Shown here in pieces: positions 50,912-56,661 of a DNA stretch of 64,000 nucleotides. Within the stretch, counting starts at the first letter, position 1; every line of letters begins with the position of its first letter. The notes beneath the pieces are model-generated. The model saw only the letters and a list, made by a program, of their open reading frames with translations. It did not search any database and was not told the DNA's origin. Origin of the DNA: Symploca sp. SIO3C6 (GTDB lineage Bacteria; Cyanobacteriota; Cyanobacteriia; Cyanobacteriales; Coleofasciculaceae); contig JAAHHJ010000001.1 of NCBI GenBank assembly GCA_010692425.1, positions 248,001 to 312,000 of the forward strand, read 5' to 3'. A program made the translations under genes and the position numbers.

Positions 50912-52249
50912 TTAATTAGGTTCTACAATTGAACCCATAAATAGGACTGTTCCAGTTTGGTTATCTCGAATCGCACAAAAGAAAGGACGATCAACAATCA
51001 TTTGGAAGGGTGGTGTTGAGGTCTCAGCAGAGGTGCGAGTGATGCCAATAGAGGTTATAGCGGCTGCTTCAGTACCTTCTTCGTTAACTTCTACAAAGGT
51101 TTTATGTTTAACCTCATCAATGGCTACTGGAGTAAAAGTCATATCGGCAAAATTTGCTCTTGGACTGAAGGCTACTTCCATACCTAGGGCTCTCAGAGCA
51201 TTATTGAGTTGAATATCGTATTCAAATTTGAAGCGAGGGAGCTTAATCATTCCCTTCCGCTTACGAAACTGATCCATCCATTGTTGCCAGTTTTGAGCGT
51301 TCAGTTGCTGCTCAAAGGCTTCAAGGGTAATGCTTTGGTGTGGCAGGAATACATAAAAACTCAGTCTCCCCTCTCCGTAAGGTAGACTAGCAGCTTGAAA
51401 AGTTTCATTTTCATAATAATTATACTTACCTGACCCAAACATCAAAGGGTGTTGTTTCTGAGTGCCATCCAATAGATAAAAAGGCAGCTCAGTGGTTAGA
51501 TTCTGGTCAAATTTTTCTGACCAGTTACCTTTGAAATAAATAGCGTTAATTAAAAAGAGTAAGTCATTCGGTTTAATCTGATCAATAATCTTATCGATCT
51601 TACCGCTAGTATTTTCCTGAACCCATTTGTTGATAGCTCTCGGGGCATCAGGACTATTGAAGTCCAGTTCCTTAACTTGGGCTCCATAGAATTGTTGATT
51701 TCTTTGGAGAAAATCAGGCTGGAACTCTATACCTAGTTTGCTCCAAAGGGAGTTGGCAATCGATAACTGAACTTCTGGATCGGCATTTTCCAAAGATACT
51801 TTTAAAGCTTCATTTGCCTGATTGATTTGCTCAATGCTCATGCCTTGTAGTTCCAGTGCTTTAGCCATTGCTTGTTGAGTTTCACCACTAGCACCGTTGT
51901 AAGTCATCGCTAGGGCAATTGCGATGCTACTAGGAGAGATAAAAACGTTTTTATTGCTTTCTTCTTTAAGAATTTCCTTAAGAAGTTTAAAACCAAATTT
52001 GGTATTGGCTTCAATAAGTTGGGAATCCACTGCTAGATCGGGTGATTCTTGAGCTAAACTATATTCTCCAAGATTTTGAGAATCAAAGAGAGGGTCAAGG
52101 GCATTGAGCTTATGAGCCATCAACCCTTCCAGTATACCTGAAACAACAATACCTGCTGCCGCAATAGCACCTACAATAACACCTGCTCGACTGACTATTT
52201 GTCGATTCATTGAACTACCTCTACCTACCAGTGCGCTTTTTACTGTCAA
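50912..52249 (-). CDS. Serpin family protease inhibitor
   Basis: NVFISPSSIAIALAMTYNGASGETQQAM; LFLINAIYFKGNW; hinge/RCL EVNEEGTEAAAITSIGITRTSAETSTPPFQMIVDRPFFCAIRDNQTGTVLFMGSI. Confidence 0.95.
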   Translation of the reverse strand: MTVKSALVGRGSSMNRQIVSRAGVIVGAIAAAGIVVSGILEGLMAHKLNALDPLFDSQNLGEYSLAQESPDLAVDSQLIEANTKFGFKLLKEILKEESNKNVFISPSSIAIALAMTYNGASGETQQAMAKALELQGMSIEQINQANEALKVSLENADPEVQLSIANSLWSKLGIEFQPDFLQRNQQFYGAQVKELDFNSPDAPRAINKWVQENTSGKIDKIIDQIKPNDLLFLINAIYFKGNWSEKFDQNLTTELPFYLLDGTQKQHPLMFGSGKYNYYENETFQAASLPYGEGRLSFYVFLPHQSITLEAFEQQLNAQNWQQWMDQFRKRKGMIKLPRFKFEYDIQLNNALRALGMEVAFSPRANFADMTFTPVAIDEVKHKTFVEVNEEGTEAAAITSIGITRTSAETSTPPFQMIVDRPFFCAIRDNQTGTVLFMGSIVEPN

Positions 52250-52508: not shown

Positions 52509-52871
52509 TCAATCTTCATCTACTTCCTCAATGCAAAGTGCATCAGCTTCGTGTTTGCGAAGACTCAAGTTACAGCCGTGTACTTCGATTTCTACACAAT
52601 CTCCCATAGGTATGTGGCGGGTGATAGTAAACTCTGTACCGGGTGTTAATCCCATGACAATCAATCTTCCTGTATAGCCTCCGCTAACCATTTCATAGCC
52701 AACAACGCGCCCTCTAGAGCCCACTGCTAAATTGCGTAGGTATGTGTTTGTGTTCATGGTTTTTTGCTCTTTACCTAAAATCTTTAACCCAGGGAAATCT
52801 CGATCCTTCATCGCTTCTTCATGGCTTCGGCGTCGGTGCATTTGGTGGTTTGAGTCCTTATTATCTTTCAT
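52509..52871 (-). CDS. FeoA-domain protein
   Basis: LRNLAVGSRGRVVGYEMVSGGYTGRLIVMGLTPGTEFTITRHIPMGDCVEIEVHGCNLSLRKHEADALCIE. Confidence 0.82.
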   Translation of the reverse strand: MKDNKDSNHQMHRRRSHEEAMKDRDFPGLKILGKEQKTMNTNTYLRNLAVGSRGRVVGYEMVSGGYTGRLIVMGLTPGTEFTITRHIPMGDCVEIEVHGCNLSLRKHEADALCIEEVDED

Positions 52872-53198: not shown

Positions 53199-53672
53199 AT
53201 GCTGAGCAAGTCTAACATTGACATTCGTCCAATTCAGAGTAAACGAGAACTAGATGATATGTACTACCAAAGATGGCTTGTCCTCAGGGCTCCTCTGGGA
53301 ATGGACAGAGGCAGTGAAAAGGACAAGCATGATTACAGTGCTTTTCATTTAGTTGCCGTCTGCGAAGAAAAAATTATAGGTTCTGCCAGACTGCGGCAAT
53401 TATCTGCACAATTGGGCAGTATTGCTTATGTTGCCGTACTAAGCGAGTTTCGCTCTCAGGGGTTAGGCACAAAATTAATTAAGAAGTTGATGGAGCAAGC
53501 CCAGGAAAAAAATCTCAAGAGTTTAAGGTTAATGGCTCGGAGCAATACCTTGGGCTTCTACCATCGAATCGGTTTCTTGGAGAAGGGGGAACCCTTTAAT
53601 TTTTTAGGTATACCCCACATCTTCATGTATGCTAACTTGCCACTTTTTTGCGATAACGTCGAAGATCGGTAA
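53199..53672 (+). CDS. GNAT family N-acetyltransferase
   Basis: HLVAVCEEKIIGSARLRQLSAQLGSIAYVAVLSEFRSQGLGTKLIKKLMEQA. Confidence 0.9.
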   Translation: MLSKSNIDIRPIQSKRELDDMYYQRWLVLRAPLGMDRGSEKDKHDYSAFHLVAVCEEKIIGSARLRQLSAQLGSIAYVAVLSEFRSQGLGTKLIKKLMEQAQEKNLKSLRLMARSNTLGFYHRIGFLEKGEPFNFLGIPHIFMYANLPLFCDNVEDR

Positions 53673-54633
53673 CAGGATTTAAGTACAAGCGGAGACTTTC
53701 TACATAATATTTAATGAATTCTGACTCCTTCATAGCGTGGCAAGAGCCTTTCAGGCTAATTGTCTTACTTTCATCTTTGACAAGATTAGCCTGATAAGTA
53801 TACACAGAGCCATTTGGTTGTTGTAAAGTGAGTTCAGCGACAATTGAGGTTTTGTCTGAAGACTGTTTGAGAATTTTGCCAGCAACTTTGTAGTCAAACC
53901 AATTCCATCCATGGAGCAGCATTAATTCCCTTTCCAATACCTGAATTTGTGTCGGTATAATTCCCCAACCTCGATACACTTTATTCATGCAGCTGATGTC
54001 ACCAGTCCTAGTCAAGATCGACTTAAATGAATCTTGATCAAGACCTCCATAATACCTGCCATCGGGAAAGTCTATGGCAGTGGGAGCAAAACGATGACCA
54101 CCGAAGTGACTTGCCCTCCAAATCCTAATATTCCTCAAGGACAGTTCCGAGATGGTAGCTAAAGCTTTTGTGTAAAAAGGAGCGCCATACTTGCCACAAC
54201 AAAGGTCATGGTTGCCGTGAGTACATACTAAGATATCTCGGGTTACAATGTCATCACAGTCTAAACTTACAGTATTATCGGTGAAATACTGACGAATTAA
54301 TTCTGCTGCCTGCCCGATATTTTCGACATTAAATTCTTTACGACTGTAACCTTTGATAATTCCTTTGTTTTTCTGGTCATAAATCAGGATCTTTCTACTA
54401 TCTTTTTTCCTGGTTTCATTGTTATTGATTAGGAGGAATTTCACCGAGAGTTGATTTTGTTTAACCTCGGCTATCAATCTTTTAAGATTTTCCGGGAGCG
54501 ATTCTGTCTCAAGGGCATTGTTTGCCCAGGGGGTGGGACACTCAACTAAAACATAGGTTTGACAATTGGTCCCACTACCAATAATGTCTTCTCCTGATTG
54601 CCTTGAAAATGCAGCACAAGAAAAATTACTCAT
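53632..54633 (-). CDS. Sucrase/ferredoxin-like (thioredoxin-like [2Fe-2S]) protein
   Basis: ILVCTHGNHDLCCGKYGAPFYTKAL...RIWRASHFGGHRFAPTAIDFPDGRYYGGLD. Confidence 0.88.
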   Translation of the reverse strand: MSNFSCAAFSRQSGEDIIGSGTNCQTYVLVECPTPWANNALETESLPENLKRLIAEVKQNQLSVKFLLINNNETRKKDSRKILIYDQKNKGIIKGYSRKEFNVENIGQAAELIRQYFTDNTVSLDCDDIVTRDILVCTHGNHDLCCGKYGAPFYTKALATISELSLRNIRIWRASHFGGHRFAPTAIDFPDGRYYGGLDQDSFKSILTRTGDISCMNKVYRGWGIIPTQIQVLERELMLLHGWNWFDYKVAGKILKQSSDKTSIVAELTLQQPNGSVYTYQANLVKDESKTISLKGSCHAMKESEFIKYYVESLRLYLNPVTDLRRYRKKVAS

Positions 54634-54858: not shown

Positions 54859-56025
54859 CTATTGGTAGATGCTAGTATCAACGAAAATAATTCCTTCAAG
54901 TACCAGACGACTTAAGAGTGGGACAATATCAATCTCCCAATCAAAACCTGGTAGCCAATTGATCACATCATTCCCTGTAAAAAACTCTTTAGTTAAAAAT
55001 TTCTCAACTATCGAACTACTCACTCCCCTTATAGATATTTCCTTACCTGAAACAGTAATTTTGCATCCATTGCTACTGTCTGGTAGTTCCGATATACCAA
55101 ACCGCTGAAACTGTGGGACTTTGAACCTTGTGTGCGTTTCTTTGTCAAAGATATTGAATCCCGCTTGCTGGGGTAAAGAATATCTCTCTACCGGCTTCCC
55201 TAAACTATCAAGGTAACTAATATACTCTTGACAAAGATTATTAGAGTAAATATATTTATCTAAATCTGTAACTAATTTATCTAGATAAACCTCTACAGGT
55301 TTTGCCTCTAAACGTAATGGTAGACTTCTACGCCATTCTTGGCGCTGGCGCAACTCTCCCACCAACCATTCCAGAAAATCAATACCTGTCTGACAATGCA
55401 CTCCTAAGGTTAAGTGCATTGATGGTTGATCTTGAGCAACCGCATAATGCCAATGTCCTCGTGGTATATAAAGGACATCGCCAGGGTTGAGGGTACAACT
55501 CAAATATGGCTCTCCTTCTGGAGGCTGAAGAGATTTTGATTTTTGCTCTACTAAAGGGTATTTAAAAGTATCAGAAAATACATACCACTTCTTAGAGCCA
55601 TCTATTTGCAATACGAAAACTTCGTGGGTGTCGTAGTGGGAAGAAAATCCTTGTTTTCCAGGCCAAGAACAATAGGCATTTAGTTGAATCCCATAGCCTA
55701 AATCATATTTGAGCTCTGTAGCGAATTTGGCAATTTCTGGAACCAGTTTATTGACCTGGTTGATGATTAACGTTGCCCCTTCCTGGCAAAACTTAGTCAA
55801 ATTCTCATTGGCACTCTCGTCTAAAACTTTTCCATCTAATGCTAGACGAAGGTCTGGATATTTGAACTGATGATAGTTAAGCAAATAGTTTAATTGTTCC
55901 CAGGAGAACAGATCCGCAAACTTATTTGTTTCCTCACTCAATATGTGGACGGCTTTGCTTGTCCAATTGTGTTTTAGGAATTCCTCTAAAGTATATGGTT
56001 TTAAGATTTCTACGAGGGACTTCAT
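54859..56025 (-). CDS. JmjC/cupin-4-type Fe(II)/2-oxoglutarate oxygenase with C-terminal winged-helix-like region
   Basis: GIQLNAYCSWPGKQGFSSHYDTHEVFVLQIDGSKKWYVF (HxD) ... LNPGDVLYIPRGHWHYAVA (distal His). Confidence 0.85.
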   Translation of the reverse strand: MKSLVEILKPYTLEEFLKHNWTSKAVHILSEETNKFADLFSWEQLNYLLNYHQFKYPDLRLALDGKVLDESANENLTKFCQEGATLIINQVNKLVPEIAKFATELKYDLGYGIQLNAYCSWPGKQGFSSHYDTHEVFVLQIDGSKKWYVFSDTFKYPLVEQKSKSLQPPEGEPYLSCTLNPGDVLYIPRGHWHYAVAQDQPSMHLTLGVHCQTGIDFLEWLVGELRQRQEWRRSLPLRLEAKPVEVYLDKLVTDLDKYIYSNNLCQEYISYLDSLGKPVERYSLPQQAGFNIFDKETHTRFKVPQFQRFGISELPDSSNGCKITVSGKEISIRGVSSSIVEKFLTKEFFTGNDVINWLPGFDWEIDIVPLLSRLVLEGIIFVDTSIYQ

Positions 56026-56162
56026 CGTTTGAGAAAGATTCGCAATAACATTATAAAAAAAACGATTATTTTACCTAACTACTTATCATAGCTCGGATTT
56101 GTATCAGGAGTAAAGGCTATATTAGTGTACCCTATACATCCTGATACAAAACATAAGCAATA

Positions 56163-56191
56163 AATATTAGCAATTAGTAATTGCTAATATT
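56163..56191. promoter_or_regulatory. Perfect inverted repeat between the peptide gene and the oxygenase gene
   Basis: AATATTAGCAATTA-G-TAATTGCTAATATT, 14-bp perfect arms around one base. Confidence 0.85.
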
Positions 56192-56232
56192 GTTGCATTA
56201 GAACTAGTACTAAGGAATAATACTAGAGGTTA

Positions 56233-56391
56233 TTAGTTGCTGAGATCGCCACCGTCGGCATCAGTATTCAAGTCGCCGCCATCAGCATCAACATGCAAGT
56301 GCAGTGTTCCCTTGTTAGGAGCTTTGTGCTGCAGGATTTCTTTAACTTCGATTTGGATCTTGCTAGCGCGCGGTTGTTTGGTCTTTAACAT
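56233..56391 (-). CDS. Putative RiPP precursor peptide, 52 aa (not in supplied ORF track)
   Basis: MLKTKQPRASKIQIEVKEILQHKAPNKGTLHLHVDADGGDLNTDADGGDLSN stop; RBS GGAG in ttggagataaATG; two tandem 9-aa repeats at C-terminus. Confidence 0.75.
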   Translation of the reverse strand: MLKTKQPRASKIQIEVKEILQHKAPNKGTLHLHVDADGGDLNTDADGGDLSN

Positions 56392-56661
56392 TATTTATCT
56401 CCAAGCGTAGTAAATCACCCATTGAACCTGCTTAACCTCACCAGCTTAAACTGTTGAGGCTAAACAGAGTCTTTATCCTTATTGAGACTTTAACTCAAAG
56501 TCAACAAAAAAGTCAACTTTTGATAAGCTTTACTAAGAAATGAAAAAATGCATTGCTTGGGATGCATTGACTATGCTCTACCATAGCTTCTGACAAAGAC
56601 CTTAAACTGTTATGGTTTTGTCAAACAGCTTGGTGGATTAGGAACCTTAAGTCAAATAATC

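Follow-up and report, generated by a model that had tools for sequence, protein, structure and literature searches.

The window examined here is a 64,000-nucleotide stretch of the genome of Symploca sp. SIO3C6 (contig JAAHHJ010000001.1, positions 248,001 to 312,000). Its minus strand encodes, at 56233-56391, a 52-residue peptide upstream of a JmjC_2 oxygenase gene. This peptide is most probably the precursor of a ribosomally synthesized and post-translationally modified peptide (RiPP), or a RiPP-like peptide, made by the adjacent oxygenase, which carries a predicted RiPP recognition element (RRE)-like domain. We conclude that the peptide family represents previously undescribed RiPP precursors for JmjC-RRE oxygenases, fusions that are themselves already known from an RRE survey (PMC12710340). 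The features central to this argument are, in window coordinates:

56399..56402 (-), GGAG ribosome-binding site (sequence; Shine-Dalgarno-like element in homologs)
56233..56391 (-), candidate precursor peptide, 52 aa (translation, homologs, selection)
56335..56370 (-), leader motif RASKIQIEVKEI, residues 8-19 (conserved island; recognition role predicted)
56293..56334 (-), variable linker, residues 20-33 (low information; ratio of nonsynonymous to synonymous polymorphism, pN/pS, 0.43-0.77)
56266..56292 (-), core repeat 1, VDADGGDLN (alignment and copy comparison)
56239..56265 (-), core repeat 2, TDADGGDLS (alignment and copy comparison)
54859..56025 (-), JmjC_2 (PF08007) Fe(II)/2-oxoglutarate (2OG) oxygenase, 388 aa, ligands H130, D132 and H193 (profile, alignment, model)
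54862..55128 (-), RRE-like C-terminal domain of the oxygenase, residues 300-388 (predicted fold, Foldseek)

A conserved peptide gene linked to an oxygenase

An earlier note on this DNA had proposed a minus-strand open reading frame (ORF) of 52 residues, and translation of 56233-56391 reproduces it exactly. The GGAG that the note took for a ribosome-binding site is separated by 7 nt from the ATG that begins at 56391, and a Shine-Dalgarno-like element precedes the start codon in 48 of 49 peptide homologs. The two copies of DADGGDL do differ at 6 of 21 nt, each difference being synonymous, as had been stated. The peptide itself gave no convincing match in Pfam, NCBIfam or PHROG searches.

We searched 99 related genomes without filtering matches by length. 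Ten further true homologs were recovered, in genomes belonging to the window's family and order. These adjoin a JmjC_2 gene, with the qualification that in one draft assembly (G021) the peptide and JmjC genes lie on different contigs. Two weak matches (L012 and L013) were rejected as homologs, since they run antisense to a gene for an ATP synthase subunit and are interrupted by a stop. Within the window's family, each of the 10 genomes whose JmjC ortholog is full-length also carried the peptide, against 0 of 11 without an ortholog, although these genomes are related and do not represent independent events; one more ortholog, truncated at a contig edge, stands outside this count. Only six matches came from 390 sampled genomes of the class, so the distribution is patchy.

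A JmjC profile scan of named genomes yielded 80 loci, 56 of them with an orthologous JmjC, including three that start at a contig edge. A same-strand upstream peptide was found at 49 of the 53 orthologous loci with enough upstream sequence (L069 and L073 being accepted by eye at weak E-values). Hosts include Symploca, Moorena, Okeania, Trichodesmium, Microcoleus, Tychonema, Brasilonema and Scytonema. Homologs with a conserved leader beside oxygenase genes, whose absence the earlier note had named as telling against a precursor, were present in 10 related genomes and at 49 named loci, and the frame was not disrupted in relatives.

Comparison of the window peptide with its nearest relative (L020) gave a synonymous divergence (dS) of 0.556 and a nonsynonymous divergence (dN) of 0.087, indicating purifying selection. 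Because homologs occur in the 10 further genomes and at the 49 named loci, with dN/dS well below 1, the ORF is beyond chance. Although it is short (52 aa) and absent from annotation libraries, a spurious ORF is virtually excluded by the conservation of frame, ribosome-binding site and dN/dS signal across about 50 genomes of filamentous cyanobacteria. On this sequence evidence, it is a real, conserved gene.

Alignment of 50 peptides resolved two information-rich islands: R.SKIQ[IV]EVK[ED]I in the leader and [NH].DxDG[GS]D in the core. The linker between them is poorly conserved. A conserved leader separate from the core is expected of a RiPP precursor, as is genetic linkage to a candidate modifying enzyme, here the JmjC_2 gene beside the homologs. 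The leader motif contains an invariant Ile and showed 0 nonsynonymous changes among 12 Microcoleus-type sequences; pN/pS in this group rose from 0 in the leader motif through 0.065 in the core to 0.43 in the linker. Acidic residues of the core rank among the most conserved in the peptide. Core copy number ranges from one to three over the homologs (the window and Brasilonema having two, and Okeania two or three) while the leader island is kept, a pattern that the earlier note had suggested looking for. Tandem copies have identical amino acids in most genomes that carry them, with nucleotides differing at 0-6 nt; L021, L062 and L066 are exceptions to this identity. The precursor layout proposed in the note is therefore supported by the homologs, the conserved leader, the one to three cores and the adjacent JmjC_2 gene. 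Its description of the leader as basic/amphipathic was only partly right: the leader is conserved, but its character is mainly that of a β-strand-like motif.

The oxygenase and its diverged relatives

The oxygenase matched PF08007 at 93.1 bits against a cut-off of 22. The catalytic residues N116, Y118, H130, D132, K145 and H193, among them the iron ligands (H130, D132, H193) and the 2OG Lys and Tyr (K145, Y118), were invariant over 40 oxygenase sequences. Its predicted model, with a predicted local distance difference test score (pLDDT) of 91, resembles NO66, MINA53, YcfD and YxbC. Sequence searches of PDB and Pfam with only the C-terminal domain gave nothing significant, and the domain was therefore assessed by fold comparison. 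It was modeled as a β3-α3 winged-helix fold (mean pLDDT 84), whose best Foldseek matches were mostly RREs (McbB, LynD, TigE, TruD, ThcOx, CteB, PbtF and TbiB1). The consistency of this list leads us to predict that the oxygenase ends in an RRE-like domain.

The strand-like leader R.SKIQ[IV]EVK[ED]I would then dock on the C-terminal RRE-like domain, and the flexible linker would allow the C-terminal core to reach the Fe(II)/2OG site. Most likely, this site would hydroxylate the β-carbon of Asp in each DxDG[GS]D unit. A sucrase/ferredoxin-like (Suc_Fer-like) protein and a GNAT acetyltransferase, both encoded nearby, would probably contribute accessory or tailoring steps. Any cleavage or export, and a biological role, we infer in the same manner.

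Peptides of the DxDG.D type, including that of the window, were designated class A. Upstream of diverged JmjC enzymes (about 40-46% identity) stand different small proteins, with Asp/Asn-repeat cores and usually the same strand motif. Class B precursors (L076-L099, upstream of JmjC) have a Sec-type N-terminus, an [IV]EVEVVNL-like motif and repeats of Asp/Gln, Asn/Ser or Asn/Arg, while class C precursors combine a double-glycine leader with Asp-Val-Asp repeats. Pfam and NCBIfam searches gave nothing convincing for these other classes. The window's own genome encodes a second JmjC paralog (G000:C235:16411-17592) with a class C precursor upstream (L108:4522-4842, minus strand), which has the double-glycine leader MIISDLSYLEVVEESKIVGG... 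and is rich in Asp-Val-Asp. Two class C-type genes stand in tandem at L089. Intermediate precursors (L074:3299-3541 and L095:3539-3895) carry RIEISIEDI and RLHVEIEDL, respectively, with DYDYDVD-like cores, and the JmjC enzymes beside them pair in the tree. All 17 class B enzymes fall into a single clade with a support of 100, such that enzyme clade predicts precursor type. An Asp/Asn-dense core is common to all classes and would fit an Asp/Asn β-hydroxylase. Another 2OG hydroxylase, FIH, acts at C3 of residues in proteins (PMC9814778).

Partner genes and competing explanations

The remaining features of the locus are:

53632..54633 (-), sucrase/ferredoxin-like (PF06999) protein, conserved C137, C145, C146, H176 and H180 (conserved partner)
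53199..53672 (+), GNAT acetyltransferase, convergent, 3' ends overlapping (conserved neighbor)
56098..56190 (-), two stem-loops in the peptide-oxygenase gap, at about 56164-56190 and 56098-56150 (folding z)

The usual locus order is peptide, JmjC_2 oxygenase, then the Suc_Fer-like protein and the convergent GNAT, the last two being present in 49 and 42 of 57 loci, respectively. A PDB search found no relative of the Suc_Fer-like protein. This [2Fe-2S] protein and the GNAT are probably products of accessory or tailoring genes, and electron transfer would be a plausible role for the former. Judged by eye only, a serpin-like protein (50912-52249, minus strand) and a FeoA-like small protein (52509-52871, minus strand) are encoded near the window locus.

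The intergenic region between peptide and JmjC genes (56026-56232) had a folding z of about -8.6, scored, like all z values here, against mononucleotide shuffles. Over 24 loci, mean z for this region was -3.7, whereas upstream sequence averaged -1.3 and coding controls 0.0. Similar stem-loop structure was seen in most loci despite unlike sequences. The stem-loops are possibly an attenuator or processing site, and may set the precursor:enzyme ratio. The distance from peptide to JmjC ranges from about 80 to more than 1200 nt, with gaps of about 0.6-1.2 kb in Okeania and Trichodesmium (L049-L066) versus the usual 0.1-0.3 kb.

Several observations weigh against a RiPP precursor recognized by the oxygenase. 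The core is conserved, not hypervariable or diversifying as in many RiPP and other natural-product cores. Individual RRE matches were weak (E 0.03-1; best 0.034, probability 0.99), and the winged helix of a YcfD-type oxygenase was also among the Foldseek matches. The shared strand motif is found in 48 of the 49 class A precursors and in 18 of the 19 of class B type, versus 0.00013 per residue in neighboring proteins, but it was written only after the sequences had been inspected, and the class B set was partly chosen by it (for 15 members, the initial grouping used only BLAST). No conserved protease or exporter was recognized among shared neighbors within about 4 kb; such genes could lie elsewhere. 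Rhizonema-type genomes retain an intact-looking JmjC without the peptide. The four loci concerned (L030, L038, L044 and L060) belong to one clade of Rhizonema and an uncultured Scytonema and also lack Suc_Fer and GNAT, which looks like a single loss of the gene set with the oxygenase retained.

Chemistry other than simple Asp hydroxylation (a crosslink, desaturation or backbone cleavage), possibly with the Suc_Fer-like protein, is an alternative that we consider rather unlikely. Characterized 2OG enzymes of RiPP pathways mostly hydroxylate, though others crosslink Cys to Tyr or cleave the backbone (PMC12636437). We rejected the known Cys-Tyr macrocyclization for the window peptide, which has neither of the two required residues. 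The Suc_Fer gene is near-universal in class A loci, as a joint reaction would predict, but is not among the conserved neighbors of class B loci. Distinctly unlikely, in our view, is a small protein that binds calcium or another metal through DxDG.D loops, its link to the oxygenase being regulatory or incidental, or the oxygenase tuning a genetically encoded metal site. The motif does resemble Ca-loop chemistry, the conserved core acids and one to three core copies would suit such a protein, and a modified DxDG.D could still act as a metal ligand. No curated Ca-binding domain in Pfam or NCBIfam matched, however, and diverged systems replace DxDG with Asn/Ser or Asp/Gln repeats, which are not Ca loops. 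Metal binding also fails to account for the RRE-like domain and for a conserved leader motif that is separate from the core. A short ORF immediately upstream of a structured intergenic region could instead be a regulatory leader peptide (upstream ORF or attenuator) of the JmjC operon, aided by the downstream stem-loops. This is very unlikely given selection at the amino acid level concentrated in two islands, the variable distance to JmjC, and a core in up to three copies whose amino acid identity is mostly retained.

Precursor modification by the JmjC-RRE oxygenase remains the preferred explanation. A broader proposal, speculative and quite unlikely as a whole, is that the cyanobacterial JmjC-RRE family writes β-hydroxyaspartate or hydroxyasparagine on repeat peptides exported by differing routes. 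The DxDG.D class would then be a ribosomally encoded metal ligand, because β-hydroxy-Asp is the chelating unit in many peptide siderophores.

Comparison with known systems

The literature searched, with most subscription journals outside its scope, contained no prior description of this JmjC-linked peptide family. NO66, MINA53, YcfD and YxbC share the overall fold, Fe/2OG residues and C-terminal winged-helix-like domain of the window oxygenase. The substrates of NO66, MINA53 and YcfD are ribosomal proteins, whereas for the window oxygenase, linkage points to a small peptide of its own. BipG/BpmG of biphenomycin biosynthesis, likewise a 2OG enzyme of the JmjC type, hydroxylates a RiPP precursor on a side chain, but acts on ornithine within a multi-enzyme cluster with MNIO and B12-radical S-adenosylmethionine enzymes (PMC12707348, PMC12257519). 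Cluster genes of this type were not recognized among conserved neighbors of the peptide loci. β-Hydroxy-Asp in a leader-bearing precursor is known from the nitrilobacillins (PMC13060819) and pfl/pos (PMC12636437), where it is installed by MNIO or HEXXH enzymes; these systems use other enzyme folds and clusters and have no tandem DxDG.D core.

The closest counterparts are the PF08007-RRE fusions of the RRE survey (PMC12710340), in which a JmjC_2 domain is likewise fused to a β3-α3 RRE-like domain and bacterial homologs occur in RiPP-like contexts. The accessible part of that survey names no precursor; the precursor family, core, motif and partners are defined here. To that extent, JmjC-RRE fusions, whose precursors had not been described, can now be assigned a family of precursors with a putative recognition motif, as well as a compact and conserved cassette, which occurs in such well-known cyanobacteria as Trichodesmium, Okeania, Moorena and Microcoleus. 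With paralogous enzymes tied to other Asp/Asn-repeat peptides, the activity of the whole oxygenase clade becomes testable.
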